A stretch of 64,000 bases of DNA from Bacteroidota bacterium (GTDB lineage Bacteria; Bacteroidota; Bacteroidia; Flavobacteriales_E; Vicingaceae): contig JACPDX010000013.1 in NCBI GenBank assembly GCA_016183805.1, positions 1-64,000 of the forward strand. The letters run 5' to 3'. The notes beneath the pieces were generated by a model. It was not told where the DNA came from, ran no database searches, and worked only from the letters and a program-made list of their open reading frames with translations. A program made the translations under genes and the position numbers. This document shows, in pieces, positions 7,401-24,366 of the stretch (the first letter of the stretch is position 1; the number at the start of each line of letters is the position of its first letter).

Positions 7401-9230
7401 ATGAAAAAATTAATACTTCTTTTTTTTATTGTTATCTCTTGTCAACTATTTTCTCAATCTAATTACATAGATAGTGTAGAACAGTCTATTGTTTCGTTAC
7501 CAAAGGACAAGCAACTCGAAATAATATTGAATATCCCGTACGATAAAATGGTTGCCAATACTACAAAGGCGGAAGCTCTTTTTTTTAAAGCACTTACCAT
7601 TGCTAAAAATCAAACAAATCAAAATTTTGAAGCTGGAGTTTATAATCAACTTGCACTAGTTTATGCATTTTTAGGAAATTTCGACAAACAATTAGCAAAC
7701 AATCTAAAAGCTATTAAGATTTACGAAACCATTGGCAACAAATCAAAAGCCGGAACAACTTATGCGGATTTAGCTTATTCGCTAAAAACTAGATCTATTG
7801 AAAAGGCTAAAACCTATATGCAAAAAGGGATTCGATTATTAAAAGAAGAAAATAATTTTGTTCTCCTAAACTCTGTTTATGACAATTATGGCGTTATTCA
7901 AGAAATTTCCGGAAATATAGATAGTGCGATTTTTTATTACAATTTAGCTCTCGATTTAAAATATAGTCAAAATGATAGCATTGGAATTCCATTCGCTTTG
8001 GGTCATTTGTCGGGAGCTTATTCCATTAAAAAAGATTTTAAAAAAGCTAAAGCATATTTGGATGAATCCTACCTAATTCGAAAAAACAGAAACGATATTT
8101 ATGGAATTGCAGAATGTTTGGTGCTTTATGGCGACTTATTTTATGCACAAAAAAATTATAAAGAGGCTTTAACTTGGTTTAGTGAAGGCTTTTCTGCTGC
8201 CGTTGAAAACAAATACATTCATTTGGCACAATATGCCGCAGAATTTTCAGCAATCTGCTACGAAAAATTAGGCGACGTTACCAATACCGTTAAATTTTTA
8301 AAAATTCAACAAGCACTTAAAGATTCATTATTAAACGAAACAACCAACAAAGCCATTGCAAAATTGGAAGTTCAGTTTGAAACAGAAAAAAAAGAAAAAC
8401 AATTAGCCGAACAGGAGGTGCTGATTACTAAAGAACAATTGCGGGTAAAACAAAGAAATTATACATTAATAGGTTTAGGTTTATTATTGATTTTCGTATT
8501 AATTTTAGGAAGGTACGTTTACCGACAACAAAAATTTAAACAACAAAAATTAATAGAAGAAAATCGTTTAAAAGATGAATTAGCTAAAATTACACTACAA
8601 AACGAATTATATGAAGAACGCTCTAGAATATCGAGAGATTTGCACGACAATATTGGTTCTCAACTTACCTTTATCATTTCATCGGTAGATAACTTGAATT
8701 ATATAGCAAAAACGACGGATAATAAATTAAAAGAAAAACTAAGCGGAATTTCTAATTTTAGTAGAACCACCATCACACAATTGAGAGACACTATTTGGGC
8801 ATTAAACAAAGATGAAATTAGTTTTGATGACTTAAAATTAAGATTGTTGAATTATATTGAATCTGCCAAAATAGCCGATGAAAATATTTCTTTTAAATTT
8901 GATGTAGACATACAACAAAATATTAATTTTAATGCTGTACAAGGAATAAATATTTATAGAATTGTTCAGGAAGCCATTAATAATGCATTAAAATATGCTG
9001 TTGCTACCAGTATTACTGTTAGTTTAAAAGAAACAAATGAACAAATACAGTTAAAAATTGAAGATGACGGAATAGGATTTAACATCAATGAAGTTAACTT
9101 AGGAAACGGATTAGAAAACATGAAAAACAGGGCTTTAACAATTAATGCCCGGTTTCAGTTCGATTCTGCTCCGGAAAAAGGTACAGCAATTACCTTAATC
9201 ATTCCAATAAATAAGACAAATGCCGTATAA
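7401..9230 (+). CDS. TPR-containing sensor histidine kinase (NarL-type partner)
   Basis: The 609-residue protein has a signal peptide (about 1-19). A periplasmic tetratricopeptide-repeat region follows (about 50-310), then a short coiled coil and one transmembrane helix (about 352-372, YTLIGLGLLLIFVLILG). The cytoplasmic kinase core holds the HisKA_3 phosphoacceptor His415 in SRISRDLHDNIGSQL and an HATPase_c domain with NALKYA, DDGIGF and GNGLENM. The TPR domain probably senses a periplasmic protein or peptide. The response regulator follows 41 nt after the stop and is the expected partner. The stop codon lies inside the first copy of the regulon operator, so the regulator has its own promoter at the kinase's 3' end. 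Confidence 0.93.
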   Translation: MKKLILLFFIVISCQLFSQSNYIDSVEQSIVSLPKDKQLEIILNIPYDKMVANTTKAEALFFKALTIAKNQTNQNFEAGVYNQLALVYAFLGNFDKQLANNLKAIKIYETIGNKSKAGTTYADLAYSLKTRSIEKAKTYMQKGIRLLKEENNFVLLNSVYDNYGVIQEISGNIDSAIFYYNLALDLKYSQNDSIGIPFALGHLSGAYSIKKDFKKAKAYLDESYLIRKNRNDIYGIAECLVLYGDLFYAQKNYKEALTWFSEGFSAAVENKYIHLAQYAAEFSAICYEKLGDVTNTVKFLKIQQALKDSLLNETTNKAIAKLEVQFETEKKEKQLAEQEVLITKEQLRVKQRNYTLIGLGLLLIFVLILGRYVYRQQKFKQQKLIEENRLKDELAKITLQNELYEERSRISRDLHDNIGSQLTFIISSVDNLNYIAKTTDNKLKEKLSGISNFSRTTITQLRDTIWALNKDEISFDDLKLRLLNYIESAKIADENISFKFDVDIQQNINFNAVQGINIYRIVQEAINNALKYAVATSITVSLKETNEQIQLKIEDDGIGFNINEVNLGNGLENMKNRALTINARFQFDSAPEKGTAITLIIPINKTNAV

Positions 9231-9258
9231 CATTATCTGTTTTTACAGGGTACATTTG
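9210..9258 (+). promoter_or_regulatory. Regulon operator-promoter copy 1 (response regulator)
   Basis: The operator AATAAGACA-AA-TGCCGTATA lies at 9210-9229, then exactly 21 nt, then a perfect -7 box TACATTTG at 9251-9258. The ATG at 9272 is only 13 nt after the box, so the leader is very short. The operator overlaps the last codons and the stop of the kinase gene. It is one of five copies with identical geometry. Confidence 0.8.
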
Positions 9259-9271
9259 CTAAAAAAATATC

Positions 9272-9925
9272 ATGAACATTAAAATTTCCATAGCCGAAGA
9301 CAACAATTTTTTAGCTCAATCCATTGAAGAAAAGCTAACCTTTTTTGATGATTTTAAGTTTAAATATAGAGCGAAAAATGGAGCTGAATTAATTGGAAAA
9401 TTAGAAGCAGACCATAATGTTGATGTTATATTAATGGATATTCAAATGCCCGAAATGGATGGTATAAAAGCTACATCATTAATTAAAAACAGATATCCTC
9501 AACTAAAAATAATAATGCTTACTGTTTTTGATGATGATGATAATATTTTTAATGCTATAAAAGCCGGTGCTGATGGCTATTTGTTAAAAGAAGTTAATCC
9601 TGAAGGCCTACACAGTGGTATTTTGCAAGTATTAGCCGGTGGTGCAGCCATGACTCCATCTGTGGCATTAAAGACATTAAACTTGCTTCGCTTTCCCGAA
9701 AAATTGACCAAAGATAAAATTCAAGTAGAAGAAATTTCACTTTCCAAAAGAGAGACCGAAATTTTAGAGCAATTAGCTAAAGGACTAAACTATCAGCTCA
9801 TTGCCGATAATCTGTTTATTTCTCCACCGACTGTTCGTAAACACATCGAAAATATTTACAAAAAACTGCAAGTTCACAACAAAATGGAAGCTGTACAAAA
9901 AGCTATCAAGAACAATCTTATTTAG
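9272..9925 (+). CDS. NarL/FixJ-family response regulator
   Basis: The 217-residue protein has a receiver domain (1-125) with acidic pocket E9/D10, phosphoacceptor D56 in LMDIQMPEMDG and the conserved Lys in GYLLKE. A LuxR-type helix-turn-helix follows (about 152-217, LSKRETEILEQLAKGL ... TVRKHIENIYKKL). It is the presumed target of the upstream TPR kinase and would bind DNA as a dimer when phosphorylated. The gene is preceded by one of five copies of a 20-bp palindromic operator, so I infer autoregulation and that it (or the small HTH paralogue downstream) is the regulon's activator. Confidence 0.94.
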   Translation: MNIKISIAEDNNFLAQSIEEKLTFFDDFKFKYRAKNGAELIGKLEADHNVDVILMDIQMPEMDGIKATSLIKNRYPQLKIIMLTVFDDDDNIFNAIKAGADGYLLKEVNPEGLHSGILQVLAGGAAMTPSVALKTLNLLRFPEKLTKDKIQVEEISLSKRETEILEQLAKGLNYQLIADNLFISPPTVRKHIENIYKKLQVHNKMEAVQKAIKNNLI

Positions 9926-9969
9926 TCAGTTTTCAATCTTCAGTTTATAATCGCAAATCTACAATCCTA

Positions 9970-10018
9970 AATACGACAAATGCCGTATTGAATGGTTATC
10001 TATTTTTAATGTTCTTTG
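9970..10018 (+). promoter_or_regulatory. Regulon operator-promoter copy 2 (stand-alone HTH gene)
   Basis: AATACGACAAATGCCGTATT at 9970-9989 is the most symmetrical copy: half-sites AATACGACA and TGCCGTATT pair at 8 of 9 positions around a 2-bp centre. After 21 nt comes a weaker -7 box, GTTCTTTG (10011-10018). A strong activator site with a weak -7 box fits activator dependence. Confidence 0.8.
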
Positions 10019-10026
10019 TTCTCAAT

Positions 10027-10242
10027 ATGGAAAAACTCACAAATCATCCGATAACCGAACGAGAAAAAGAAGTGATTTCTTTAATATATAAAGGATTAAC
10101 CTACAACGAAATAGCGGATAATTTAATCATTAGTCCGGCTACTGTTCGAAAACACACCGAAAACATTTATAGAAAATTAAGTGTGCATAATAAAGTAGAA
10201 GCTATTCATAAATGTATTGAAAAAAAAATACTGAAATTCTAA
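10027..10242 (+). CDS. Stand-alone LuxR/NarL-type HTH regulator without receiver
   Basis: The 71-residue protein is just a LuxR-type helix-turn-helix (ITEREKEVISLIYKGL, then TVRKHTENIYRKLSVHNKVEA), closely matching the C-terminal 65 residues of the response regulator just upstream. An in-frame ATG exists at 9988, but it lies within the operator and upstream of the -7 box, so the ATG at 10027 is the credible start. That leaves only about 8 nt between -7 box and start codon, hence a nearly leaderless mRNA. Without a receiver it could bind the same operator constitutively, as helper or competitor of the full-length regulator. It looks like a partial duplicate of that gene. Confidence 0.82.
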   Translation: MEKLTNHPITEREKEVISLIYKGLTYNEIADNLIISPATVRKHTENIYRKLSVHNKVEAIHKCIEKKILKF

Positions 10243-10243
10243 A

Positions 10244-10292
10244 AATAAGTCAAATGCCGTATGGTAAATTTTTTCTATTAAACAAACCTTTG
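10244..10292 (+). promoter_or_regulatory. Regulon operator-promoter copy 3 (T9SS cargo)
   Basis: Operator AATAAGTCA-AA-TGCCGTATG (10244-10263), 21 nt, then -7 box AACCTTTG (10285-10292). The leader to the cargo start at 10423 is about 125 nt and contains a GC-rich short ORF. The site starts directly after the HTH gene's stop codon. Confidence 0.8.
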
Positions 10293-10345
10293 TGAAAGTT
10301 AATGATAAAATTGTTTCAACAAATAAAAATAAAAAAATAAATTAA

Positions 10346-10399
10346 ATGGAGGCGAGTAGCCATCACAAACAGGGCGGAACCGAAAAGCCAAAAGAGTAG
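10346..10399 (+). CDS. Possible 17-residue leader peptide in the cargo mRNA
   Basis: ATG GAG ... TAG encodes MEASSHHKQGGTEKPKE inside the 5' leader of the cargo gene, 23 nt before its start. The stretch is about half G+C whereas the surrounding leader is almost pure A/T, so something is being kept here. It may be a translated leader peptide or a structured RNA element (GGC and GCC around the GGAACCGAAAA loop). Low certainty. Confidence 0.35.
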   Translation: MEASSHHKQGGTEKPKE

Positions 10400-10422
10400 G
10401 AGAAATAAAAAAATTTAAACTT

Positions 10423-11658
10423 ATGAAAAATGTTACTTTAATTATGTTTTTGTTCATTTCAATGCTTGGATTCGGACAAACCTGGAATCAATTGCCATAC
10501 TATTTTCCACAAACCCCTCAGAGTACTCCAAAAATTTTTACATCTCCTAATGATGTATTGGTGGCAGGGATTAGTTATAATTCGGCCCCCACATCACACA
10601 TTTCATTAGATGGAGGCTCTACATGGCAATTGATATTCGCAGATAAGCCAATCGCTTCTGCCGAATTTGGACCAGACGGTACCATCTATTTCATTGCTAC
10701 AAAAAGATACTTAACCACATCCAACTACTATACAGACACCTTATTTACCTCTACCGATGGTGTTAATTGGACGAATATGGGGTATAAATTGAAAGACGGT
10801 TACAATGAATACAATTTTACTATTTCGGGTAATAACACACTCTTGTTCCCCAATCTCTCAAATATTAATGGAAAGTTTTTTAGTAAATCAACAAATAATG
10901 GAGTAGCATGGACAAATACCGCTGTCGAAGCAAGCCAAGTTACTTGCAATCCTTCCGCAGACACCATAATAATCAGCTTCACTTCTCCTTGGCCAGGAGG
11001 CATTAAATATTCCCATGATGGAGGTGTAACCGTAAACACTGCAACAGGTATTGCTGCAGGAGGAACAATTCCTATCTGGCTACCTAATGGAGATATTTAT
11101 GCAGCTGCGGTAGGGCAAATTTATAAATCAACCGATGCAGGGGTTACATTTACCCAAGTTCCCCTGAATCCATCAGTAGTTCAAATTCAAGAATTTTTGT
11201 ATGGTACAAATGGTAAATTCTATATTAGAGTCTTGAATGGTATTTGGGAAACAACAGACTTTACTAATGTTACGGCGATAACTTCAACCCTGCCAGACTA
11301 TAATCTTATAAAGGACATGGACATTAGTGATAATTATATCTACGCCATTACAGATACCAACCTTTACAGATTACCACTTAGTTCTGGAACTTCAATTTCG
11401 GAATCTGGAAAAGAGGTAGCTTTTGAAATTTTTCCAAACCCTACAAAAGAAAATCTGTCGATAAAAAGCCCTTTTAGCGGAAATGCCGTAGTTGAAATTT
11501 ATGATTTGCAAGGAAAAAGAGTGCTGAATACTACCATTTTATTAGAAGAAAATAAAGCTACTAACCTAGTTTTACCAAAAACACTGCACGGATTGTATGT
11601 AATTAGGATAACTAATAAAAAAGGAGAAACACAACATTATAAAATTAGTATTGAATAA
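10423..11658 (+). CDS. T9SS type A cargo with sialidase/BNR-like propeller
   Basis: The 411-residue protein has a signal peptide (MKNVTLIMFLFISMLGFGQ). A beta-rich body follows with BNR/Asp-box-like turns (SLDGGSTW, STNNGVAW, SHDGGVTV, STDAGVTF), which indicates a sialidase-fold propeller. It ends in a type A sorting domain (EIFPNPTKENLSI ... LHGLYVIRI). There are no catalytic residues I can assign, so it is probably a binding or structural surface protein. It is transcribed from operator copy 3 and resembles the cargo at 21520 in architecture. Confidence 0.87.
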   Translation: MKNVTLIMFLFISMLGFGQTWNQLPYYFPQTPQSTPKIFTSPNDVLVAGISYNSAPTSHISLDGGSTWQLIFADKPIASAEFGPDGTIYFIATKRYLTTSNYYTDTLFTSTDGVNWTNMGYKLKDGYNEYNFTISGNNTLLFPNLSNINGKFFSKSTNNGVAWTNTAVEASQVTCNPSADTIIISFTSPWPGGIKYSHDGGVTVNTATGIAAGGTIPIWLPNGDIYAAAVGQIYKSTDAGVTFTQVPLNPSVVQIQEFLYGTNGKFYIRVLNGIWETTDFTNVTAITSTLPDYNLIKDMDISDNYIYAITDTNLYRLPLSSGTSISESGKEVAFEIFPNPTKENLSIKSPFSGNAVVEIYDLQGKRVLNTTILLEENKATNLVLPKTLHGLYVIRITNKKGETQHYKISIE

Positions 11659-11672
11659 CGTGTTGTTATCCA

Positions 11673-11711
11673 ATAGAGGCTATTCACAAATCTATTGAGA
11701 AAAAATCTTAA
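11673..11711 (+). pseudogene. Relic of the HTH gene 3' end
   Basis: The frame reads IEAIHKSIEKKS then stop, matching VEAIHKCIEKK at the end of the HTH gene near 10.2 kb. DNA similarity continues through the operator, the promoter and the following A/T-rich leader (10199-10345 against 11676-11820). The whole block of 3' end plus promoter was therefore duplicated to a place in front of the next gene. Confidence 0.7.
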
Positions 11712-11720
11712 AATTTTAAA

Positions 11721-11769
11721 AATAGGGCAAATGCCGTATTGTGAGTTTTTTACACAAACCGAATCTTTG
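11721..11769 (+). promoter_or_regulatory. Regulon operator-promoter copy 4 (FGE-like gene cluster)
   Basis: Operator AATAGGGCA-AA-TGCCGTATT (11721-11740), 21 nt, then -7 box AATCTTTG (11762-11769). A -33 TTG (11739-11741) overlaps the operator end with 20 nt to the -7 box. It lies 51 nt before the start of the FGE-like gene and in the duplicated block. Confidence 0.8.
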
Positions 11770-11820
11770 TAAAGATTAATAATAAAATTATTTCGACGAA
11801 TAAAAATAAAACATAGACAA

Positions 11821-13347
11821 ATGAAACATTCAATACTTAAAACTACAAGAAACATAACAGTAGCAATATTGTTAATGGCTATTTCTACAGTAGGTAAATT
11901 ATCTGCAAATAATATTGCTGTAGCCAATACATCAATTATTGCTCAAAATACGGCAAGTAATTATACTCATGTAAAATTTGATGTGAGTTGGGAAAACTCT
12001 TGGAGAACTTCAACATTAGAAAGTAACTGGGATGCTGCTTACGTTTTTGTAAAATATCGAATACCACCAATGAACACCTGGTACCATGCTACTTTAAATT
12101 ATGTAGATGGAACAGCTACAAATGATGGTAATACAGAGCCGGCAGGAGCTACTATTAATACCACCTCTGATGGCAAAGGTGCATTTTTATATAGAAATGC
12201 TAATGGTATTGGTAATGTAAACTTTACTGATGCTCGTTTACGTTGGGATTATGGTGCTGATGGATTAAATGATGAAGACAGTGTAGAGGTTTGTGTGTTT
12301 GCTATTGAAATGGTTTATGTTCCTCAAGGTGCTTTCTATTTGGGAGATGGCTCTGTTACATCTGTACAAGGTAATTTTGAAGCTGGAACAACTGGAAATC
12401 CTTTTTATTTAACATCAGAAGCAGCTTTAACTCTTGGGGGTGGAGGTGTTGGTTCTTTAGGCAATAATCACAGAGCTGGTATGTACTCTCCTACTGCAGA
12501 AGATTTTCATGATGCCGCATCAGTTGCTCTGCCTGCTGCTTTTCCTAAAGGGTTTAATGCATTCTATTGTATGAAATACGAAATAACACAGGGACAATAT
12601 GCCGATTTTTTAAACAAATTAACCTTAACTCAAGCCACTGCAAGATATATGGGTGGATACAACGCATTAACTCAATCCATCACAGGAACTCATCCAAACT
12701 ATGCAGCTGGTTCGCCAGATAGACCTTTAATGTTAACCAATTCTAATGATTTTTATACTTATCTAGATTGGACTGGCCTACGACCAATGACTGAATTGGA
12801 ATACGAAAAAGCTTGTAGAGGATCAAGAGGTATTGGGTTTTTACCCACTCCTGATGAGTTTGCTTGGGGAGATGTATCAATTAAAGCAGGTCCTGGCTAT
12901 ACTATCACAAATGCCGGACTTCCGAACGAAACGGTAAATGCAGTAAACACCATTGGAAATGTAGCTTATGTTTTAACCAACAATTCTAGACCTTACAGAG
13001 CTGGAGTTTTTGCAGCAAGTTTGGCTACCCCTAACAGAGTTGAAGCAGGAGCCTCTTACTATGGTATTATGGAAATGACAGGGAATCAATGGGAATATGC
13101 TATAACTGTTGGTAGAGCAGAAAGTAGAACATTTAATGGCTCTCATGGTGATGGAAAAATTGATGCCGCAGGTTACTATGATGTTTCAAACTGGCCTACC
13201 AGTTATTTAGGATTAGGTGCTCGTGGTGGTTCTTATGATAATGCAGCTACCGAGTTAAGGGTATCTTCTAGATATATAGGTCATTATTTTGGAACTGCTG
13301 GTCGTGTGACTCAATACAGCGGAAGAGGCGTAAGAACAGCTCAATAA
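11821..13347 (+). CDS. Secreted formylglycine-generating-enzyme-like (SUMF1) protein
   Basis: The 508-residue protein has a signal-like N-terminus (about 1-29). A beta-rich N-terminal domain follows (about 40-160), then an FGE-sulfatase/SUMF1 fold (about 165-508) with FYCMKYEITQGQYADFLN, RPMTELEYEKACRG, MEMTGNQWEYAITVG and the C-terminal ARGGSYDNA. In true FGEs the stretch after RGGS carries the copper-binding catalytic cysteines. Here no Cys is present in it, so the domain is probably non-catalytic and used for binding or structure. It is expressed from operator copy 4 and precedes the giant type B cargo and its PorP/SprF partner, so it may belong to one surface complex. Confidence 0.85.
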   Translation: MKHSILKTTRNITVAILLMAISTVGKLSANNIAVANTSIIAQNTASNYTHVKFDVSWENSWRTSTLESNWDAAYVFVKYRIPPMNTWYHATLNYVDGTATNDGNTEPAGATINTTSDGKGAFLYRNANGIGNVNFTDARLRWDYGADGLNDEDSVEVCVFAIEMVYVPQGAFYLGDGSVTSVQGNFEAGTTGNPFYLTSEAALTLGGGGVGSLGNNHRAGMYSPTAEDFHDAASVALPAAFPKGFNAFYCMKYEITQGQYADFLNKLTLTQATARYMGGYNALTQSITGTHPNYAAGSPDRPLMLTNSNDFYTYLDWTGLRPMTELEYEKACRGSRGIGFLPTPDEFAWGDVSIKAGPGYTITNAGLPNETVNAVNTIGNVAYVLTNNSRPYRAGVFAASLATPNRVEAGASYYGIMEMTGNQWEYAITVGRAESRTFNGSHGDGKIDAAGYYDVSNWPTSYLGLGARGGSYDNAATELRVSSRYIGHYFGTAGRVTQYSGRGVRTAQ

Positions 13348-13366
13348 TAAGAAATAGAAATTTGTT

Positions 13367-13440
13367 GGAAGACCGAAGACCGAAGTCGGCATTGTACGAA
13401 GGCTTCCCCTCTTTAGAGGGGTAGGGGTGTGTTTTTAGAA
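13367..13440. repeat. Interspersed repeats between the FGE-like and adhesin genes
   Basis: Two repeat types in tandem: GAAGACCGAAGACCGAAGTC, then the hairpin CCCCTCT-TT-AGAGGGG followed by TAGGGGTGTGT. The second block, from GGCATTGT onward, recurs nearly unchanged at 53687-53740. The first type recurs at 30754, 50652 and 62502. Some could act as transcript-attenuating hairpins, but they look like genome-wide parasites. Confidence 0.7.
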
Positions 13441-13472
13441 GACAGATAACTAAATAACTGCAAACTGTAAAA

Positions 13473-16400
13473 ATGACTAAACATTTCATATATATATTGT
13501 TGTTACTACTTTGTAGTTCCAATTTAATGATGGCTCAAAACAATGCTATTTTTAATGGAGGAAGTACCGATGGTCATACCAAAGATTGTTATGCTCAACC
13601 TAGCAATTTAAACACTACCTTATCAAAGGGCGGAAACGGAGATGGTCATAGCAAAGATTGTTACGTTCAAACCTCTAACCTAAATCCGGCACTTTCTGCT
13701 GGTGGTAATGGAGATGGACACAGCAAAGATTGTTATACTCAAGTGTCAAACCTTCATGTAATTAATTATGGGGGTGATGGTGATGGTTCTGCAAAAGATT
13801 GCTACACACAATCACCAGTATTAACTGTGAATTTTAGTGGTGGTAGTAATGATGGAGCGGCAAAAGATTGCTACACTCAAGCTTCTAACTTAAACCCAAT
13901 TTTTAGTGGAGGTGTTGGAGGTGATGGACAATTAAACGGTTGTGCTAATGAACCTTTAGGTTGTTTTCTTGCCATTAATTTAGGTAATGATACTACATTT
14001 TGCGCAGGTCAAACACTAACATTAGATGCAGGGGGCTTTCCTGGAGGAGCAACTTACGAGTGGCAAGATGGTTCTTCCTCTCAAACTTTTGTAGTTGATA
14101 CTACTGGAATTTATTATGTTTTTGTAACAGATACTGCAGGTTGTACCGGAATTGATTCTATTGTGGTTACCGTAAATCCAATTCCTGTTGTGAATTTAGG
14201 TAACGATACAGCTTTTTGTGCCGGAAACAATTTAATACTAGATGCGGGAAATGCTGGAGCGACATATGTATGGCAAAACAATGCTATACCAGCCTATCAA
14301 AATCAAACATTAACAGTTAACTCTACAGGAATATATTTTGTAACTGCAAGTTTTGGCACTTGTACCGATACTGATTCCATCACGGTAACAGTAAATCCAA
14401 TTGTTACAACCAATTTACCGGATTCCATCATTTGTCAAGGCGATAGTGCTTTAATTTTTGGGGTATATCAAAATGTTGCTGGAACTTATCGTGATACCGT
14501 TTTGGCAAGTACAGGTTGTGATAGTATTTTAGTTCAACAATTAAATGTTAATCCAACCTATAATCAAAACTTAGGAACAGTAACCATCTGCCAAGGTGAT
14601 AGTGCTTTAATATTAGGCAACTACGAAACCGTTGCTGGAATATATTCCAATACTTACCAATCTATAAACGGTTGCGATAGTATTGTTTCACAGACATTAA
14701 ATGTAAGTCCAATTCATTTAGTTAATTTAGGTAACGATACTGCTTTCTGTGCAGGAAATAGTTTATTATTAGATGCAAGTGCTGGTGCATCTTCATACCA
14801 ATGGATGAATGGAGTTGGGTTTCCATATAATCAACAAACCTTCACTGTTTCAAGTACCGGAACATATTATGTAGTAACTACACTTGGTGCTTGTACAACT
14901 TCGGACACCATAAATGTAACCGTAAATCCTATAGTAACCACTAACCTTTCGAACGAAATAGTTTGTCAAGGCGATAGTGCACTGATTTTCGGAAACTACC
15001 AAACCGTTGCAGGTAATTATTACGATACGTTAACTGCATCAACAGGTTGTGATAGTATTTTGGTAAAACAACTCATTGTAAACCCAATTTATAACATCAA
15101 CTTAGGAACTACAACCATTTGTAATGGCGACAGTGCTTTAATATTAGGAAACTACGAAACTGTTGCGGGAACATATTCTGATACATTAACAAGTATTAAT
15201 GGTTGCGATAGTATTGTTTCTCAAACATTAAATGTAAGCCCAAGTCACAATGTTAATTTAGGGAATGATACCGCATTCTGTGCTGGAAATAGTTTATTAT
15301 TAGATGCAAGTGCTGGAGCAAGTTCTTATCAATGGATGAATGGAGTTGGATTCCCATACAACCAACAAACATTTACTGTTTCAAGTACAGGAACCTATTA
15401 TGTAGTAACTACTTTGGGTGCTTGTACAACTTCGGACACCATAAATGTAACGGTGAATCCAATTGTAACCACCAACTTAGCCAACGAAGTGGTTTGTCAA
15501 GGCGATAGTGTATTAATTTTTGGAAACTACCAAACCATTGCAGGTAATTATTACGATACACTAACTGCATCTACAGGCTGCGATAGCATTTTGGTAAAAC
15601 AACTTATTTTAAACCCAACTTACAACCAAAATTTAGGAACAATAACCATTTGTAGTGGTGATAGTGCACTGATTTTTGGAACTTATCAATCAGTTTCAGG
15701 CACATATTCTGATACATTATCTACAGTTAATGGTTGCGACAGTATCGTTAATCAAACATTATCAGTATTATCTAACTCAAGTGTAAATTTAGGAAACGAT
15801 ACATCTTTCTGTGCAGGAAATAGTTTATTGTTAGATGCAGGTAGCGGAAACAGTTACTTGTGGCAAGATGGATTTACTAATTCTCAAACGTATTTAGCAA
15901 CAACGTCAGGTCTTTATTATGTAACAGTTTCTTTAGGGGCTTGTTCGGCTACTGATAGTATTAACATCACTGTAAATCCAATTGTGACTACCAACTTAAC
16001 CAATGAAGTAGTTTGTCAAGGAGATAGTGCCTTGATTTTTGGAAACTACCAAACCATTGCTGGTAACTATTACGATACATTAACCGCTTCTACAGGTTGC
16101 GACAGTATTTTGTTGAAACAGCTTATCGTAAATCCAACTTACAACCAAAACTTAGGAACCGTAAACATTTGCCAAGGCGATAGTGCGTTAATTTTGGGTA
16201 ACTATGAAACTGTTTCAGGAACATATTCTGATACATTAATCAGCATAAACGGTTGCGATAGTATTGTTTCTCAAACATTAAATGTAAGCCCAAGTCACAA
16301 TGTTAATTTAGGGAATGATACAGCTTTTTGTGCAGGAAATAGTTTATTATTAGATGCAAGTGCTGGAGCATCTTCATATCAATGGATAAATGGAGTTGGC

Positions 16401-18644
16401 TTCCCTTACAACCAACAAACCTTCGCTGTTTCAAGTACCGGAACATATTATGTGGTAACTACTTTGGGAGCTTGCACCACTTCTGATACTATTAATGTAA
16501 CAGTAAATCCAATACAAACTACTGTTATTGGTAGCTATACCATCTGCCAAGGCGATAGTCAATTGATTTTTGGAAACTACCAAACCGTTGCAGGATTTTA
16601 TAATGACACTATTGTAGCTTCAACAGGTTGTGATAGTATTTTAAGTGAACAACTCATTGTGAATCCTGTTTATAATTACAGTCTTTCTCCTGTTTCAATT
16701 TGCCAAGGTGATAGTGCTTTAATTTTCGGTAATTACTATTCAGTGGCGGGAGCTTATTACGATTCAACAACTACCATTTTTGGTTGCGATAGTATTGTTG
16801 CTCAAGAATTAATTGTAAATCCTTATCATGTGATTGATTTAGGGGCTGATACCGCAATTTGCGAAAACTCAACTATAATTTTAGATGCAGGTGCTGGAGC
16901 AGATACTTATATGTGGCAAAGTACTCCTTTACCTGGATACATGAACCAGACTTTTGGAGCTGCTAGTGCAGGAATGTATTATGTAGTAGCTACCATAGGT
17001 GTTTGTTCTTCGTCAGACACCATAAATGTGAGTGTAATACCTACAGTTTATACTAACTTAGCAAATGTAGAAATCTGTCAAGGCGATAGTGCATTGATTT
17101 TTGGAAATTATGAAACGGTTGCAGGAACATACAATCAAGTTCTTGTTGCCTCAACAGGTTGCGACAGTATTTTAGTTCAACCATTAATTGTTCATCCAAA
17201 CTATGTTGTACCACAATCTTTTGCCATTTGCCAAGGTGATAGTATAATGCTTGGCGGGGTTTATCAAAATAGTGCAGGAACTTATTTCGATACTTTACAA
17301 TCGGTGAATACTTGTGACAGTATTATTGCAACAACATTAATTGTAAACCCTACTTATACTGTAAACACGTTAGCTACTATTTGTGATGGCGACAGTATAT
17401 TGTTAGGTGGCTCTTATCAAACCATTGCTGGTGTTTATACTGATATTTATAGCAGTATTAACGGCTGTGATAGTACAGTAAACACAACACTAATTGTTAA
17501 CCCTGTTTATGTTATCAATCAAAACATAGAAATATGTGCTGGCGATAGTATTTATTTAGGTGGAGCATATCAAAATACAGCTGGAGTTTATACTGACGTT
17601 TACATCTCAATATTTGGTTGTGATAGTACCGTTGTTACTACATTAGGAATAAAACCAATTGCTACAAATACGTTAACTCCAATAACTATTTGCGACAACG
17701 ATTCTGCTTTAATTTTTGGAAACTACCAAACCGTTGCAGGAATGTATTCTACTGTGATACCAAACGGGGCTGTTAACGGTTGTGATAGCATTGTTTATCA
17801 AGAATTAATGGTAAATCCTACTTATCAAATTGTTGCAAACGCAACCATTTGTAGTGAAGATAGTATTTTCCTAGGCGGAGCTTACCAAACTACGGCAGGA
17901 ATTTATGTTGATGTTTATGCTTCAAGTTTAGGGTGTGATAGTACAATTACAACAACGCTAAGTGTAATAAACAGCTTTACGATAAATATCAACGACACCA
18001 TTTGTGCAGGAGATAGTATTTTATTGGCAGGGGCTTATCAAACTGTAGCTGGAACTTACACCGAATTATTTTTGTCAACTGGTGGCTGCGATAGTTTAGT
18101 AATTACCGAACTTTATGTAAATCCATTACCAATAGTTACGCTAACTGCTGACCCTGAGCTAATCTTATCAGGTCAATCATCGCAATTAACTGCAACAGGT
18201 GGTGGATTATACAATTGGACTCCAACAACAGGCTTATCTTGCTCAAACTGTGCAAACCCAGTGGCTTCACCATCAGAAACTACCTTATACACTGTTGAAG
18301 TTAATTTAAGTGGTTGTATGGTTTCCGATACCATTACCATAAGTGTTGATTCGGAGTTTAAAATTCCAGAAGGATTTTCACCAAATGGCGATGGCGTAAA
18401 CGATGTTTTCGAAATCGTTGGTATTGGTCAATTCCCAAACAATAAAATAATGATTGTTAACCGTTGGGGAAATAAGGTATTTGAAGCTGCTCCCTATAAA
18501 TCAGATTGGGATGGAACAAGTCAGTTTGGAATTACGATTGGCGAAAAATTACCATCAGGAACTTACTTCTACATCCTCGATTTAGGTAAAACAGGTCCAT
18601 CAGGTTCTCAAGAAATTAAAGGTTACATATACATAAATAGATAA
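13473..18644 (+). CDS. Giant T9SS type B (gliding-motility-associated CTD) repeat protein
   Basis: The 1723-residue protein has a signal peptide (MTKHFIYILLLLLCSSNLMMAQ). Six short repeats follow (about residues 25-165) with core GGxxDGxxKDCYxQxSNL. A long array of Ig-like modules alternates two units, LGNDTAFCAGNSLLLDA...YxW and ICQGDSALIFGNYQTVAG...GCDSI, each about 70 residues with conserved Cys. It ends in a type B sorting domain (FSPNGDGVNDVFEI ... NRWGNKVFE). It is a likely secreted filamentous adhesin. The PorP/SprF gene follows 2 nt after the stop, the usual partner of such cargo. Several modules are almost identical in DNA, so copy number may vary. Confidence 0.92.
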   Translation: MTKHFIYILLLLLCSSNLMMAQNNAIFNGGSTDGHTKDCYAQPSNLNTTLSKGGNGDGHSKDCYVQTSNLNPALSAGGNGDGHSKDCYTQVSNLHVINYGGDGDGSAKDCYTQSPVLTVNFSGGSNDGAAKDCYTQASNLNPIFSGGVGGDGQLNGCANEPLGCFLAINLGNDTTFCAGQTLTLDAGGFPGGATYEWQDGSSSQTFVVDTTGIYYVFVTDTAGCTGIDSIVVTVNPIPVVNLGNDTAFCAGNNLILDAGNAGATYVWQNNAIPAYQNQTLTVNSTGIYFVTASFGTCTDTDSITVTVNPIVTTNLPDSIICQGDSALIFGVYQNVAGTYRDTVLASTGCDSILVQQLNVNPTYNQNLGTVTICQGDSALILGNYETVAGIYSNTYQSINGCDSIVSQTLNVSPIHLVNLGNDTAFCAGNSLLLDASAGASSYQWMNGVGFPYNQQTFTVSSTGTYYVVTTLGACTTSDTINVTVNPIVTTNLSNEIVCQGDSALIFGNYQTVAGNYYDTLTASTGCDSILVKQLIVNPIYNINLGTTTICNGDSALILGNYETVAGTYSDTLTSINGCDSIVSQTLNVSPSHNVNLGNDTAFCAGNSLLLDASAGASSYQWMNGVGFPYNQQTFTVSSTGTYYVVTTLGACTTSDTINVTVNPIVTTNLANEVVCQGDSVLIFGNYQTIAGNYYDTLTASTGCDSILVKQLILNPTYNQNLGTITICSGDSALIFGTYQSVSGTYSDTLSTVNGCDSIVNQTLSVLSNSSVNLGNDTSFCAGNSLLLDAGSGNSYLWQDGFTNSQTYLATTSGLYYVTVSLGACSATDSINITVNPIVTTNLTNEVVCQGDSALIFGNYQTIAGNYYDTLTASTGCDSILLKQLIVNPTYNQNLGTVNICQGDSALILGNYETVSGTYSDTLISINGCDSIVSQTLNVSPSHNVNLGNDTAFCAGNSLLLDASAGASSYQWINGVGFPYNQQTFAVSSTGTYYVVTTLGACTTSDTINVTVNPIQTTVIGSYTICQGDSQLIFGNYQTVAGFYNDTIVASTGCDSILSEQLIVNPVYNYSLSPVSICQGDSALIFGNYYSVAGAYYDSTTTIFGCDSIVAQELIVNPYHVIDLGADTAICENSTIILDAGAGADTYMWQSTPLPGYMNQTFGAASAGMYYVVATIGVCSSSDTINVSVIPTVYTNLANVEICQGDSALIFGNYETVAGTYNQVLVASTGCDSILVQPLIVHPNYVVPQSFAICQGDSIMLGGVYQNSAGTYFDTLQSVNTCDSIIATTLIVNPTYTVNTLATICDGDSILLGGSYQTIAGVYTDIYSSINGCDSTVNTTLIVNPVYVINQNIEICAGDSIYLGGAYQNTAGVYTDVYISIFGCDSTVVTTLGIKPIATNTLTPITICDNDSALIFGNYQTVAGMYSTVIPNGAVNGCDSIVYQELMVNPTYQIVANATICSEDSIFLGGAYQTTAGIYVDVYASSLGCDSTITTTLSVINSFTININDTICAGDSILLAGAYQTVAGTYTELFLSTGGCDSLVITELYVNPLPIVTLTADPELILSGQSSQLTATGGGLYNWTPTTGLSCSNCANPVASPSETTLYTVEVNLSGCMVSDTITISVDSEFKIPEGFSPNGDGVNDVFEIVGIGQFPNNKIMIVNRWGNKVFEAAPYKSDWDGTSQFGITIGEKLPSGTYFYILDLGKTGPSGSQEIKGYIYINR
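14715..16510 (+). repeat. Near-identical tandem modules within the adhesin gene
   Basis: Blocks starting at about 14715, 15248 and 16298 share long stretches of almost identical DNA over the Ig-like modules (for example AATAGTTTATTATTAGATGC in all three). Silent differences are few compared with other modules, so these are recent duplications or are kept alike by recombination. Assembly collapse is a risk here. Confidence 0.75.
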
Positions 18645-18646
18645 CC

Positions 18647-19579
18647 ATGCGAAATTTTATAACCATCATATTATCTCTTTTTATTTCTTGTGTGACTTAT
18701 GCACAACAAGAAGCCATGTTTACTCATTACATGTTTAATAAATTGGCTATAAACCCAGGCTATGCAGGTACTGTCGATGCCATAAGCATTACGGGTATTC
18801 ATCGTTCGCAATGGACTTCGTTTAAAGGAGCGCCTACTACACAAAATTTAACGGCCCACATGCCAATTGATGGTAAAAATATTGGAGTTGGATTTTCTGT
18901 ATTAAACGATCAAATTGGACCAACACAGAATGTTGGTTTAGCTGGGGATTTTGCTTATAAAATAAAAATTAATGATAGAGATAAACTCTCATTAGGACTA
19001 AAAGCTTCTATCAATTTTATTTCAACCAATTTAACCGCATTAGAGATTATTGACCAAAGTGATGCTTCTTTTTCTCAAAATATAAGCAGTGGAACATTAC
19101 CCAACTTTGGATTTGGTGCATACTATTACAACAAAAAATATTTTGCAGGAATATCTACTCCAAAACTATTACAAAATGGTTTTGATGCAAGCAATCCGGC
19201 AGGAACGTCAATAGCCATTTCGAACGACCAACGTCATTATTTTTTAATGGGAGGAACTGTTTTTAACCTTACCTCTGACGGGATGTTTAAATTAAAACCA
19301 ACCTCTTTTGTAAAAATAACAGGTGGGGCTCCTATTCAAATGGACATTACTTCATCAGTAATTTACAACGACAAATTCTCGGGTGGCTTATCGTGGAGAA
19401 CAGGCGATGCTTTAGGCTTACTATTAGGTGTTAATTTAAACGACCAATTTATGTTTGGTTACTCGTTTGATTTCTCTTACACCAATACTACATTTAACTA
19501 CAATGGTGGTAGTCACGAAATAATGTTGCGTTACGACATTGTTAAAGACAAAGAAAAATCGGTTCCAAGCCATTTTTAA
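18647..19579 (+). CDS. PorP/SprF family T9SS outer-membrane protein
   Basis: The 310-residue protein has a signal peptide (about 1-20) and the family start AMFTHYMFNKLAINPGYAG. It is expected to form a beta-barrel of about 14 strands in the outer membrane. Proteins of this family act with type B CTD cargos; SprF is needed for surface delivery of SprB. The gene follows the 1723-residue cargo after two bases, so the two are surely co-expressed, and this copy is likely its dedicated anchor or export partner. It differs from the single core PorP of the PorKLMN machinery, which is not in this window. Confidence 0.93.
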   Translation: MRNFITIILSLFISCVTYAQQEAMFTHYMFNKLAINPGYAGTVDAISITGIHRSQWTSFKGAPTTQNLTAHMPIDGKNIGVGFSVLNDQIGPTQNVGLAGDFAYKIKINDRDKLSLGLKASINFISTNLTALEIIDQSDASFSQNISSGTLPNFGFGAYYYNKKYFAGISTPKLLQNGFDASNPAGTSIAISNDQRHYFLMGGTVFNLTSDGMFKLKPTSFVKITGGAPIQMDITSSVIYNDKFSGGLSWRTGDALGLLLGVNLNDQFMFGYSFDFSYTNTTFNYNGGSHEIMLRYDIVKDKEKSVPSHF

Positions 19580-19602
19580 CTTTAGACTAGATAAGCCATA
19601 TT

Positions 19603-19651
19603 TATACGACAAATGCCGTATTGATTTTATTTTGTATTTGATGAATCTTTG
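19603..19651 (+). promoter_or_regulatory. Regulon operator-promoter copy 5 (590-residue protein)
   Basis: Operator TATACGACA-AA-TGCCGTATT (19603-19622), 21 nt, then -7 box AATCTTTG (19644-19651), with a -33 TTG at 19621-19623. The start codon at 19685 is 33 nt further. No relic of the HTH gene precedes this copy. Confidence 0.8.
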
Positions 19652-19684: not shown

Positions 19685-21457
19685 ATGAATAAAAGAATCA
19701 TCGCTGGTCTGTTTGGTTTTGCCATTATATGCTCAGCTAGTGCACAAATAGCACAAGAAAAAACGGTAGAACTAACCGGAAAATCAAAAAACAAAGGTTA
19801 TTTAGGTAACGTTGTTGTTGACGATGTAAAACAACAATTCGATATGGTTTTTGTAACCAAAGACAACAACCGAAAAGTGGAATATGAAGTATATCAATTC
19901 GACTACGAGTTTAATTTACTAAACAACTTTAAAGAAGCCGAACGAAAAGTTAGATCTCGTTCAAAAAATAAAACCTACAAAGGCGACTATCAAGAAATAA
20001 TTGGTGTAACTGCTAGTCCAAACATGACTGGCAAATTGGTTTTACGCAAAACATTATACATCAACCAATGGAACTGGTGGAAAGGTGGTTATGAAACCAC
20101 TAAAAAGTTGTTAGATAAAGAAAAACCAAAAGAAATTGGTGGTGATGGTGACGATAAAAAACGTAAGTTGTTTTATACCGCTCATAAAGATATTGCTGAC
20201 AAAGGAGAATTATTGGTTTGTGCATTAGTAAACAAAGGAATCATGTCTATGTCGAAAGAAGCTGACAGAGAATATTTGTTAATGCACATTGACAAAGATT
20301 TAAATATTGTGAAAAAAACGCCAATTAAATTTGACCATCCTCAATCCTTATTGTTATCAAAAGAATTGGAAGATACCGACGAATGGATTTTAGTATTTGC
20401 ACCATTTAGTGCCGCTGGCATGGGTAAATTAGCCGATTCGAACCCCAATAATCTAACTTACATTAGAATTGACGAAGCAGGAAATGTTAAGGAACGATTT
20501 AACTTTAACAGCAAATGTAACGAATGGGCTATTTTTGATGCCTATGCAATTGGAAACGATGTATATTTCTATGGACCTGGAAATATCAATAAACCTGAAA
20601 AAAATTACACCAAAGCTCCTTTTAGTCTTACCAATGATGCTTATCCAACGGCTGGCGATGAAAGCGTGAGAATGGCGACTCTTGAAGGAATGAAATTTGG
20701 ATACCTTCAAATTGCAAAAATTACCGGAGGAAAAGCTGAATTTGTTTCTGCTGTATCAATAGATGAAATAAACACCAAAGGAATTAAACCTGCCAGTCAG
20801 AAAAAATTACGTGAATTTGACGGTAAGAAATTCATCTTAAATGGTGTTAACATTACTTCAAATGGCGATGTATTTGTATCTGGTCAAGATTTTAAAATTG
20901 ACAACATGGGCGATGTTAAAGGTAGAGTTTACAAAGATTTAATGATGTTTCAATTTGATAAAACCGGTACATTTAAACGTTATTATGGTATAGAAAACAC
21001 GGCAAAACCGGCAGGATTGTTTGGTGGTGCTGGCGGAGCAAAATCATTCCCTTCTGAATTTGCTCTTTACGAAGCTCCAAACGGAAAAGACTTATTTTGG
21101 AATGTATTTTTAGTTCAAGATGTAGATGTTGACTGCTCTTCTGAAACATCAACCAATTACTTGGCAGGTACAAGAACCACCACCACGACTTGTGTTTATA
21201 CCCCATTATACCAAGGTAAATTCGGTAAAATTGATATAACTTCAGGCACAGTTTCAGATTTTACCACTTTTGGAGGAAAAGACTACTTTCTATACATTGA
21301 CTTAGAAGACAACGGTAAAGGAAAAGATTCTCCTTACTTCAGTATCAATGGTGGCAAACAAGTGGTTTATGTTGCTCGTCAACGTAAGGGTGGTATTAGT
21401 GGTAGCGAACGTTGGGGAAATAGCCTATGGTTTGGTAAATTCGACCCAACTAAATAA
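19685..21457 (+). CDS. Secreted protein of unknown function in the operator regulon
   Basis: The 590-residue protein has a signal peptide (MNKRIIAGLFGFAIICSASAQ). The body is rich in Lys, Asp and Asn with many beta-hairpin-like segments and lacks a T9SS sorting domain, lipobox or transmembrane helix, so it is probably periplasmic. Segments such as DLNIVKKTPIKF and YIRIDEAGNVKERF look like propeller blades. I do not recognise the family. Its promoter carries operator copy 5, and a strong hairpin terminator follows, so it is a single-gene unit under the same control as the adhesin cluster. Confidence 0.8.
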   Translation: MNKRIIAGLFGFAIICSASAQIAQEKTVELTGKSKNKGYLGNVVVDDVKQQFDMVFVTKDNNRKVEYEVYQFDYEFNLLNNFKEAERKVRSRSKNKTYKGDYQEIIGVTASPNMTGKLVLRKTLYINQWNWWKGGYETTKKLLDKEKPKEIGGDGDDKKRKLFYTAHKDIADKGELLVCALVNKGIMSMSKEADREYLLMHIDKDLNIVKKTPIKFDHPQSLLLSKELEDTDEWILVFAPFSAAGMGKLADSNPNNLTYIRIDEAGNVKERFNFNSKCNEWAIFDAYAIGNDVYFYGPGNINKPEKNYTKAPFSLTNDAYPTAGDESVRMATLEGMKFGYLQIAKITGGKAEFVSAVSIDEINTKGIKPASQKKLREFDGKKFILNGVNITSNGDVFVSGQDFKIDNMGDVKGRVYKDLMMFQFDKTGTFKRYYGIENTAKPAGLFGGAGGAKSFPSEFALYEAPNGKDLFWNVFLVQDVDVDCSSETSTNYLAGTRTTTTTCVYTPLYQGKFGKIDITSGTVSDFTTFGGKDYFLYIDLEDNGKGKDSPYFSINGGKQVVYVARQRKGGISGSERWGNSLWFGKFDPTK

Positions 21458-21519: not shown

Positions 21520-22743
21520 ATGAAAAAAATTAGCCTACTCATTTCTATTTCAATTTTGTCTGTAACTAGCTTAAAAGCACAGTGGACACAGGTTAACTCT
21601 GGTATATCAGATTTAACTCAAGGTGCAGTGACATTAGCTCCTTCGGACACCTATCTATTCTCTGGAGCAAATGCAAAAATGTATCGAAGTAATACAGATG
21701 GAAATTCATGGACGGAAATTCAGCCTCCTATTCCATTAAATGTTCCTGTATGTGGTTATTTCTATAATGGAATTTATTTTGCCGGGATGAATGCGTCAAC
21801 CAGTTGTATCTATTACAGTTCTGACAATGGTTCGAATTGGAATAGTACCAATGGAGCACCAACAGCTTCGGTTGTTCGTGGGTTTATCTACCTCTCATCA
21901 AACCTATTTGCTTATACATCAAATCTTGGTGTTTATAAATCAACAGATGGCGGTTTAATTTGGAATCCATCAAATACGGGGTTAACTAACCTCAATATAA
22001 TAGATATGGAAACCATTAACAATAAGCTTATTGCTACAACTATTGGTGGCGGTGTTTTCATATCATCCGACAATGGTAATAATTGGATTCAAAGCAATAC
22101 TGGCATAGGAAGCGGTGAATTAAATGGTACCTTAACCTGGAGAATGGGAACTAATCTTTACTACATTGAGCAAGGTGGAGCTTCATACATCAGCGCCAAT
22201 GAAGGTCTAAATTGGACAACTTGGACAAAACCTCAAATGATGGGTTTAAATCCACTCGAAGTTCATAGAAAAGGGAACAATATTTATGTGAAATCCCGTC
22301 ACCTCGATATGACTGTTTTTCAATTAAAAGACAGTATTTATCTATCACAAAATGAAGGTATTAGCTGGGATAACATTACAAGTGATTTACCCAGCAATTT
22401 AAACGGTTCGGGGTTATTTGAATTTAACAACTTTGTTTATATAGCTTTTAACAATATATCTCCAGGATTAGGAATTTACCGAAACGGTATTAATAGTACT
22501 GCTATTGAAAAAAACTTAAACACTCAAAAAACATTGTTGTACCCTAATCCTTTTCATCATCAACTAAATTTAAGTAATCAAGTAGAAAAAATCCGAATTT
22601 ACAATATTCTTGGAAAAGAAATTTTATATCTTACCAACCCTTCAAAATCTATCAACACAACATTCCTGGACAATGGAACTTATGTTTTAGAAATAGAATT
22701 AACCAACAAATCAAAACATATACAAAAGCTTATTAAGAATTAA
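21520..22743 (+). CDS. T9SS type A cargo with YCF48/BNR-like propeller
   Basis: The 407-residue protein has a signal peptide (MKKISLLISISILSVTSLKA) and repeated turns of the Asp-box type (SSDNGSNW, STDGGLIW, SSDNGNNW, SANEGLNW). These indicate a sialidase-fold propeller like photosystem assembly factor YCF48. A type A sorting domain (LLYPNPFHHQLNL ... NGTYVLEIEL) ends it. It has the same architecture as the cargo at 10423, though without a visible copy of the operator in front of it. Hairpins lie on both sides, so it is probably transcribed alone. Ligand unknown. Confidence 0.87.
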   Translation: MKKISLLISISILSVTSLKAQWTQVNSGISDLTQGAVTLAPSDTYLFSGANAKMYRSNTDGNSWTEIQPPIPLNVPVCGYFYNGIYFAGMNASTSCIYYSSDNGSNWNSTNGAPTASVVRGFIYLSSNLFAYTSNLGVYKSTDGGLIWNPSNTGLTNLNIIDMETINNKLIATTIGGGVFISSDNGNNWIQSNTGIGSGELNGTLTWRMGTNLYYIEQGGASYISANEGLNWTTWTKPQMMGLNPLEVHRKGNNIYVKSRHLDMTVFQLKDSIYLSQNEGISWDNITSDLPSNLNGSGLFEFNNFVYIAFNNISPGLGIYRNGINSTAIEKNLNTQKTLLYPNPFHHQLNLSNQVEKIRIYNILGKEILYLTNPSKSINTTFLDNGTYVLEIELTNKSKHIQKLIKN

Positions 22744-22827: not shown

Positions 22828-24366
22828 ATGAAACATCTTGTCTCTCTTTTATTACTAACTTGTTTTTCAAGTTTATTCTTTGCACAAGAACCTATCGTTT
22901 TTGATGCTGAACCTGAAAATTTAGGAAACAAAGTAAACTCTGAATATTCCGATATTTCTCCAACTATTTCTCCTGACGGAAAAACACTTTTTATTACCCG
23001 CTATCCACCAGACAACGGAGGAAAAAACAACATTTGGGTTTCGTATTTACAAGCTAATGGAGAGTGGAGTTTAGCCCGTAACATCGGCACGCCTTTAAAT
23101 GTTCCGGGTTCGTCAACCTCTGTGCAATCCATTACCCCTGATGGCAACACCATTTTACTTTCCAACCTATACAAATATTTCGATGGAAGTATCACAGGTG
23201 GAGGTTGTTCGATAAGCTCCCGACTACGAGGTGGATGGAATTTCCCAAAAGGACAAGTCATTGAAAAATACGAAAACCTCAACCAATACGTAAATTATTA
23301 CCTTTCAAATAGCGGACAATATTTGTTAATGGCTATTGAAATGAAAAAAGGATTTGGAGAAAAGGATATCTATGTTTCTTTTAGAAACCCCAAAGACCCT
23401 AATGGTTGGACAAAACCATTAAATTTAGGAAACGTCATTAACACAAAAGCAGGCGAATTCGGACCATTTTTAGCCGCCGATGATAAAACCTTGTACTTTG
23501 TTTCGAGCGGACAGGCTGGAGGTTATGGCGATGCCGATGTGTGGATGAGCAAACGATTAGACGACACGTGGACCAATTGGAGTAAACCTGTTAACTTGGG
23601 CGAAAAAATTAATTCTAGCGGATTTGATGCTTATTTCAGTATTGATGCCTCGGGCGAATATGCCTACTTTACCTCAACCAAAAACTCTTACGGAAGTAGC
23701 GATATTTTTAGAATAAAAATGCCAACTGCTGCAAAACCAGACCCCGTTGTATTAATTTACGGTAAAGTAATCGACCAAAAAACCAACCAACCGATAAAAG
23801 CAAAAATCAGTTACGAACAATTGCCTTCGGGCAAAGAAGTAGGTACAGCCGTTACCAGCCCCGAAGACATGATTTATAAAATTGTTTTACCTTTTGGCGA
23901 AAACTATGGTTTTATGGCTTCTGCCGATAATTATTATTCGGTTACCCAAAACCTCGACCTAAGCAAACTGGAGGCTTACCAAGAAATGGAAGTAAATTTA
24001 TATTTGGCTCCAATACAAAAAGACGAAGCGATAAGACTAAACAACATTTTCTTTGAATTTGGCAAAAGCGTGTTAAAGGAAGAATCTTATCCCGAACTCA
24101 ATCGTTTGGTAAAATTACTAACCGACAACCCTGCCATTACCATTGAAATAAACGGACATACCGACGATGTTGGTGCGGATGCCGACAACCTTAAACTTTC
24201 GCAAGAAAGAGCAGCTGCGGTAGTTGCATACCTAACCTCTAAAAAAATAGGTGGCAACCGATTATCGTCAAATGGTTTTGGCGAAACAAAACCCCTGGCC
24301 GACAACAAAACCGAAGAAGGACGACAACTCAACCGACGTGTGGAGTTTGTCGTGAAAACGAAATAA
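22828..24366 (+). CDS. PD40 propeller/OmpA-domain envelope protein
   Basis: The 512-residue protein has a signal peptide (MKHLVSLLLLTCFSSLFFAQ). PD40/WD40-like repeats follow (about 40-300, with SPTISPDGKTLFIT and YFTSTKNSYGSSDIF), then a carboxypeptidase-regulatory-like domain (about 305-385) and a C-terminal OmpA domain (about 400-510, FFEFGKSVLKEESYPEL, EINGHTDDVGADADN, RRVEFVVK) that should bind peptidoglycan. Domain order matches the sensor at 2844 except that this one has a normal export signal. Proteins of this type often accompany PorP/SprF genes of T9SS, which fits its position at the end of the secretion cluster. Confidence 0.9.
   Translation: MKHLVSLLLLTCFSSLFFAQEPIVFDAEPENLGNKVNSEYSDISPTISPDGKTLFITRYPPDNGGKNNIWVSYLQANGEWSLARNIGTPLNVPGSSTSVQSITPDGNTILLSNLYKYFDGSITGGGCSISSRLRGGWNFPKGQVIEKYENLNQYVNYYLSNSGQYLLMAIEMKKGFGEKDIYVSFRNPKDPNGWTKPLNLGNVINTKAGEFGPFLAADDKTLYFVSSGQAGGYGDADVWMSKRLDDTWTNWSKPVNLGEKINSSGFDAYFSIDASGEYAYFTSTKNSYGSSDIFRIKMPTAAKPDPVVLIYGKVIDQKTNQPIKAKISYEQLPSGKEVGTAVTSPEDMIYKIVLPFGENYGFMASADNYYSVTQNLDLSKLEAYQEMEVNLYLAPIQKDEAIRLNNIFFEFGKSVLKEESYPELNRLVKLLTDNPAITIEINGHTDDVGADADNLKLSQERAAAVVAYLTSKKIGGNRLSSNGFGETKPLADNKTEEGRQLNRRVEFVVKTK

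Follow-up and report, generated by a model that had tools for sequence, protein, structure and literature searches.

In a 64,000-nucleotide stretch of a Bacteroidota bacterium of the family Vicingaceae (GenBank assembly GCA_016183805.1, contig JACPDX010000013.1, positions 1 to 64,000 of the forward strand; the window hereafter), a TPR-repeat histidine kinase and a NarL-type response regulator (RR) are encoded next to five copies of a short palindrome, each at a base-exact distance from a promoter-like box. We consider it highly probable that these sites are the operators of this two-component system, with predicted class II activation of a module of surface-protein genes. A small LuxR-type helix-turn-helix (HTH) protein encoded beside the RR, the solo HTH protein, probably shares the sites. 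Binding, activation, the role of the solo protein, the operon structure and the signal are what we infer from sequence. NarL-type two-component systems are numerous in Bacteroidota, and this one comes with a concrete operator, a promoter position, a candidate regulon and a link to the recognition helix.

Five proposed operator copies with one promoter geometry

The 12-mer core CAAATGCCGTAT occurs five times in the window, and a sequence-only reading that had put 20-bp copies at 9210, 9970, 10244, 11721 and 19603, each followed by 21 nt and a TAnnTTTG-like box, had the position and spacing of every copy right. An order-2 Markov model predicts 0.011 occurrences per 64 kb (P about 1.5e-12 for the five observed) and about 0.6 in the whole 3.47-Mb genome, which contains exactly these five, all within one 10.4-kb stretch; that reading had named random scatter across the genome as an outcome that would count against it, and all matches fall in this cluster. 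A genome search with the full palindrome (<=3 mismatches) likewise ranks the five window copies first; the sixth in rank, C3:260, falls within a narH-like gene, and we discounted it as a chance match. The aligned 20-mers are identical at 0-based offsets 1-3, 5 and 7-18, the layout of 20-mer, 21 nt and 8-nt box is exact in 5/5 copies, and TTTG always begins at +45 of the 20-mer, i.e. exactly 26 nt past the 18-mer. The operator has the form of a NarL-type 7-2-7 palindrome, ATACGnCA-AA-TGnCGTAT. Its symmetry falls short of the 8 of 9 half-site positions first proposed, as the best 18-mer has 7/9 palindromic pairs (8/10 for the 20-mer at 9970), and the likeness of the boxes to TAnnTTTG is partial: TTTG is present in all five, the full motif only at 9251, and 3/4 of the remaining boxes keep the A of TA.

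9211..9228, + strand: operator copy 1, ATAAGACAAATGCCGTAT, at the 3' end of the kinase gene and upstream of the RR gene; same gap kept in RR orthologues
9251..9258, + strand: -7 box TACATTTG of the predicted RR promoter
9971..9988, + strand: operator copy 2, ATACGACAAATGCCGTAT, upstream of the solo HTH gene; conserved in genomes G035 and G032
10011..10018, + strand: -7 box GTTCTTTG
10245..10262, + strand: operator copy 3, ATAAGTCAAATGCCGTAT, upstream of a type IX secretion system (T9SS) type A cargo gene; in the block duplicated with copy 4
10285..10292, + strand: -7 box AACCTTTG
11676..11711, + strand: relic of the solo HTH C-terminus (EAIHKSIEKKS-stop; EAIHKCIEKKILKF), upstream of copy 4, a mark of the duplicated operator segment
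11722..11739, + strand: operator copy 4, ATAGGGCAAATGCCGTAT, upstream of the FGE-like, adhesin and PorP genes; conserved before FGE orthologues in G032, G035 and G003
11762..11769, + strand: -7 box AATCTTTG
19604..19621, + strand: operator copy 5, ATACGACAAATGCCGTAT, upstream of a gene for a 590-amino-acid (aa) protein; operator and gap conserved before orthologues
19644..19651, + strand: -7 box AATCTTTG

The copy at 9210 doubles as the final codons of the histidine kinase gene (NKTNAV-stop). The copies at 10244 and 11721 share a homologous block of ~185 bp that includes the solo HTH relic and therefore represent one duplication, so that all five proposed copies exist and only four are independent. 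In G035 and G032 the RR gene is followed by an operator, the solo gene, a second operator and the FGE-like gene, and no cargo gene intervenes; the cargo gene of the window thus sits between two copies of the duplicated operator segment.

Predicted position of the operator in the promoter

The gap was examined more widely by searching 46 genomes of the family and 295 of the class for ATACG-N8-CGTAT followed by TTTG at 12-40 nt. Within the family, 29/85 matches have a gap of 26 nt, where the other gaps average 1.8 each, and, among the matches listed for the class outside the family, 31/139 have it, where the other gaps average 3.6; these matches are not phylogenetically independent, which makes P values only indicative. 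A profile of 48 sites, retained after removal of near-identical flanks, reads ATACGnCAAATGnCGTATTG, 20 unconserved bases and nAnnTTTG. Its operator part, TACGnCA-AA-TGnCGTA, consists of two inverted 7-bp half-sites with a 2-bp spacer and TAC...GTA outer bases, the 7-2-7 arrangement of NarL sites. The NarL consensus half-site is TACYYMT, and the inner bases GnCA of our operator differ from those of the E. coli consensus, which sets it apart from E. coli NarL sites in the strict sense. With its right half the operator extends into the -33 TTG of a sigma-A promoter of the Bacteroidota type, and the profile fits both sigma-A elements, a TAnnTTTG -7 box and TTG near -33, although TTTG was in part a selection criterion; the -33 G (37 of 48 sites) and the -11 A (44 of 48) belong to columns that played no part in site selection. 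In F. psychrophilum, TAnnTTTG spans -12 to -5 (PMC9723704), which by analogy places the operator centre at -43.5. On such predicted start sites, the operator would lie within the class II range (centre -41.5 to -44.5, at a fixed distance from the -10/-7 box), in agreement with the NarL-type palindrome and the position near -42 suggested earlier.

As a mechanism, we propose that a dimer of the output domain would bind the 7-2-7 palindrome ATACGnCA-AA-TGnCGTAT centred near -43.5. Since the downstream half-site would merge with the -33 TTG, the bound regulator would touch RNA polymerase and, as a class II factor, could activate a weak sigma-A promoter (nAnnTTTG). That the gap is fixed to the base argues for direct polymerase contact, i.e. 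for activation. The system would switch on its own regulator and the solo HTH gene, likely as a feed-forward or amplifier loop, to which the solo protein, whose own gene lies behind an operator, would contribute positive feedback should it be an activator. Further putative targets are the T9SS type A cargo gene, the operon of FGE-like protein, type B adhesin and PorP, and the 590-aa gene together with that of a PorE-like OmpA protein; taken together, these would form a cell-surface adhesin module.

The architecture is unusually rigid and widely conserved. We lean slightly towards regarding a 7-2-7 operator fused to the -33 TTG, with TTTG after 26 nt, as a general NarL-type activation architecture across the class, in which the half-site bases (ATACG..CGTAT or ATACC..GGTAT) are read by the recognition helix. 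If true, regulators could be matched to regulons by sequence alone. The pronounced preference for one gap across the class points to a search rule by which regulons could be assigned to many uncharacterised systems controlling adhesins and T9SS cargo. Elsewhere in the genome, contig C22 has a divergent ATACC-N8-GGTAT pair (L161, 2475 on the - strand and 2820 on the + strand) with the 26-nt gap to TTTG, one site preceding a type A T9SS cargo gene; these are likely operators of another regulator and hint that the geometry is general. Several contigs of genome G285 (e.g. L213) contain many ATACGTATAAATACGTAT-like sites with a gap of 26-27 to TTTG, a pattern which suggests that, in another family, a related regulator controls a larger regulon.

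Regulators, recognition helix and conservation

7401..9230, + strand: histidine kinase, 609 aa, with TPR repeats, HisKA_3 and HATPase_c (Pfam)
9272..9925, + strand: NarL/FixJ-type RR, 217 aa, with Pfam Response_reg and GerE and the recognition helix TVRKHIEN
10027..10242, + strand: solo LuxR-type HTH protein, 71 aa, recognition helix TVRKHTEN, 56% identical to the RR output domain

The RR has the domain order of the NarL/FixJ family, a receiver followed by a GerE/LuxR HTH (PF00072, 1.7e-24; PF00196, 7.4e-20). For the solo protein, an 84-aa open reading frame starting with TTG at 9988 would overlap its own promoter, so the likely start is the ATG at 10027 (71 aa); this start is nearly leaderless, as is common to relatives.

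Three family genera have RR orthologues with 74-93% identity, and G018 and G028 have more distant ones; in Polaribacter, Lutibacter, Kordia and Algoriphagus the orthologues show 66-74% identity. The operator with its 26-nt gap precedes the regulator gene in most close RR orthologues, and an operator upstream of the own RR orthologue is present in several family genera, Polaribacter, Lutibacter and other groups. Operator and gap also stand before solo HTH, FGE-like and 590-aa genes, other cargo genes and lipoprotein genes of relatives, often on other contigs, so that the check suggested earlier, a look for the motif beside orthologues in related genomes, supports the predicted targets. In G018, whose regulator shares 54% identity, the operator has other inner bases, and 2/3 sites keep the outer ATACG/CGTAT and the gap; in G065, the operator before the 590-aa gene has a -7 box one base off TTTG. 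A family-wide search for the exact 12-mer gave mostly one match per genome, and those near RR orthologues or targets were followed. Of the 46 family genomes, 10 carry the 590-aa gene and each of these also has the RR, while 6 have the RR only and 30 neither (Fisher P 2e-6, relatedness ignored).

The regulator is tied to the operator by its recognition helix. All 15 scanned response regulators with an upstream operator at a gap of 25-27 have the helix RKHxEN after TV or TI. This helix is found in 22 scanned regulators, 15 of them with an operator, and none of the other regulators has one (Fisher P 5e-9, with L185 misread and so counted against the link). Within the own genome, only the RR and the solo protein carry a matching helix among the readable GerE matches, which are all of the twelve except L235 and L240. 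RRs sharing less than about 45% identity were set aside as other NarL regulators with different helices and no operator.

Candidate target genes

10341..10406, + strand: DUF805 RNA (RF03081), candidate cis-regulatory RNA in the cargo gene leader; 63.8 bits, gathering 51.1
10423..11658, + strand: T9SS type A cargo protein, 411 aa (Por_Secre_tail)
11821..13347, + strand: exported protein with FGE-sulfatase domain, 508 aa (Pfam PF03781, 2.2e-13)
13473..18644, + strand: large adhesin, 1723 aa, with Ig_7-like repeats and a type B T9SS C-terminal domain (CTD; CHU_C / Bac_Flav_CTERM, TIGR04131)
18647..19579, + strand: PorP/SprF family outer-membrane protein (PF11751, 1.5e-79)
19685..21457, + strand: exported 590-aa protein, no Pfam family; a recurrent target
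21520..22743, + strand: T9SS type A cargo with Sortilin/BNR-like repeats
22828..24366, + strand: PorE-like PD40 and OmpA protein, 512 aa; in relatives, too, encoded after the 590-aa gene

The adhesin with its type B CTD (TIGR04131) is thus encoded beside PorP-like (PF11751) and PorE-like (PD40 and OmpA) genes, although the TPR part of PorE was not seen in the PD40 and OmpA protein. Anchoring of type B proteins is attributed to PorP-like and PorE-like partners (PMC9143113), and on that account the cluster reads as one surface-adhesin module. The regulon had earlier been called a secretion regulon; its proposed members (regulator, cargo, FGE-like/adhesin/PorP cluster, 590-aa protein) hold up, and what they encode are surface and secreted proteins with an adhesin-PorP-PorE-like module, not the secretion machine. 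A search for an own operator of the cargo gene at 21520..22743 found none, and this gene is probably in the operon of the 590-aa gene. The 590-aa protein gave an all-beta, propeller-like model (pLDDT 62.5; PDB matches at TM about 0.3), too weak to assign a function. A distant paralogue (about 26% identity) adjoins another NarL-type regulator at G003:C6:25106-26596 (L225), which suggests a second system of the same layout.

The cargo gene at 10423 may be under both transcriptional and RNA-level control, as the DUF805 RNA lies between operator copy 3 and this gene. A genome search showed it to be the sole copy in the genome, and it was not found in the 12 related loci searched. A short dispersed palindrome, ATCCGTCAGYTGACGGAT, at 49394-49411 of the window and at other genome places (L241-L252), is mostly intergenic, sometimes within terminator-like hairpins, and unrelated to the operator.

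Alternative explanations

Several observations weigh against activation by the two-component system. The T of TAnnTTTG is absent from 4/5 -7 boxes of the window, and copy 1 overlaps coding sequence, so that coding constraint could explain part of its conservation. An upstream operator with an exact TTTG is absent for seven RR orthologues that have the RKHxEN helix (Polaribacter, Lutibacter, Kordia, Algoriphagus, L089, L090); in Polaribacter and Lutibacter the operator is nonetheless there, its -7 box differing by one base. The class-wide matches at gap 26 may belong to several regulators. Finally, a site that overlaps the -33 element could also repress, the regulator covering this element until the kinase signals. 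Repression, however, would not call for a base-exact gap across families, and with weak -7 boxes and NarL activating from the same position we consider it quite improbable.

A different division of labour is conceivable, with the solo HTH protein rather than the phosphorylated RR as main activator and the RR mainly starting or tuning the loop. The solo protein has the same helix residues, TVRKHxEN, in a domain 56% identical to the RR output domain, its gene is under the operator in G000, G032, G035 and G006/G019, and isolated NarL output domains can be constitutive at some promoters (PMC4549865). Yet many relatives have the operator and the RR with no solo gene found adjoining, and there the RR must suffice; we think this arrangement unlikely. 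As binding by the RR is itself a deduction, an unlinked regulator of another family might recognise the sites, but the 7-2-7 layout is that of NarL, the site accompanies the regulator gene from genome to genome and, the RR and the solo protein aside, this helix is missing from all GerE proteins of the genome with readable helices, leaving very little room for such a factor. The clear duplication that links copies 3 and 4 could even suggest that the repeats were spread by local duplication or a mobile element, without regulatory role. Other copy pairs share little flank similarity past the operator region, and orthologous targets are preceded by operator and gap in other families, too, as well as on unrelated contigs, so that we give this idea almost no credence. 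Operators of the adjacent two-component system therefore remain our preferred reading.

Comparison with known systems

The kind of control, class II activation by a NarL-type regulator, is known, and its Bacteroidota instance appears undescribed in the literature searched: our search found no match to the operator, no equivalent Bacteroidota LuxR-type regulon and no described operator for a NarL-type two-component system of Bacteroidota. At ogt1052, E. coli NarL needs no partner to activate from -44.5 (PMC9314961), and its site at napF spans -40 to -49 (PMC4549865). These single-site class II promoters and that of yeaR resemble ours in their 7-2-7 heptamers, TAC...GTA outer bases, a centre at about -42.5 to -44.5 and a GerE-type output domain. 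By contrast, the inner bases here are GnCA and not YYMT, the promoter is of the Bacteroidota -33/-7 type with the site merged with the -33 TTG, surface proteins rather than nitrate genes are the proposed targets, and a solo HTH copy takes part in the loop.

Porphyromonas gingivalis FimS/FimR is likewise a Bacteroidota two-component system for surface-structure genes; it directly activates mfa1 and the first gene of the fimA cluster, and the parts of that report consulted here describe no operator motif (PMC1974823). Our kinase has a weak full-length resemblance to the FimS model NF053520 (59.8 bits), far below the cut-off of 600, so the kinase is not classed as FimS and is at most a possible orthologue, and the proposed targets here are T9SS-exported adhesin parts. 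PorX/PorY/SigP also links two-component control to the T9SS in Bacteroidota, where the secretion machine is controlled through an extracytoplasmic function (ECF) sigma factor (PMC4800418); here a NarL-type regulator would act at sigma-A type promoters of cargo and adhesin genes. With the PorE-PorP-type B CTD anchoring complex (PMC9143113), the putative regulon shares a type B adhesin, PorP and a PD40-OmpA PorE-like protein, to which the present system adds extra partners (the 590-aa and FGE-like proteins) and a dedicated operator.

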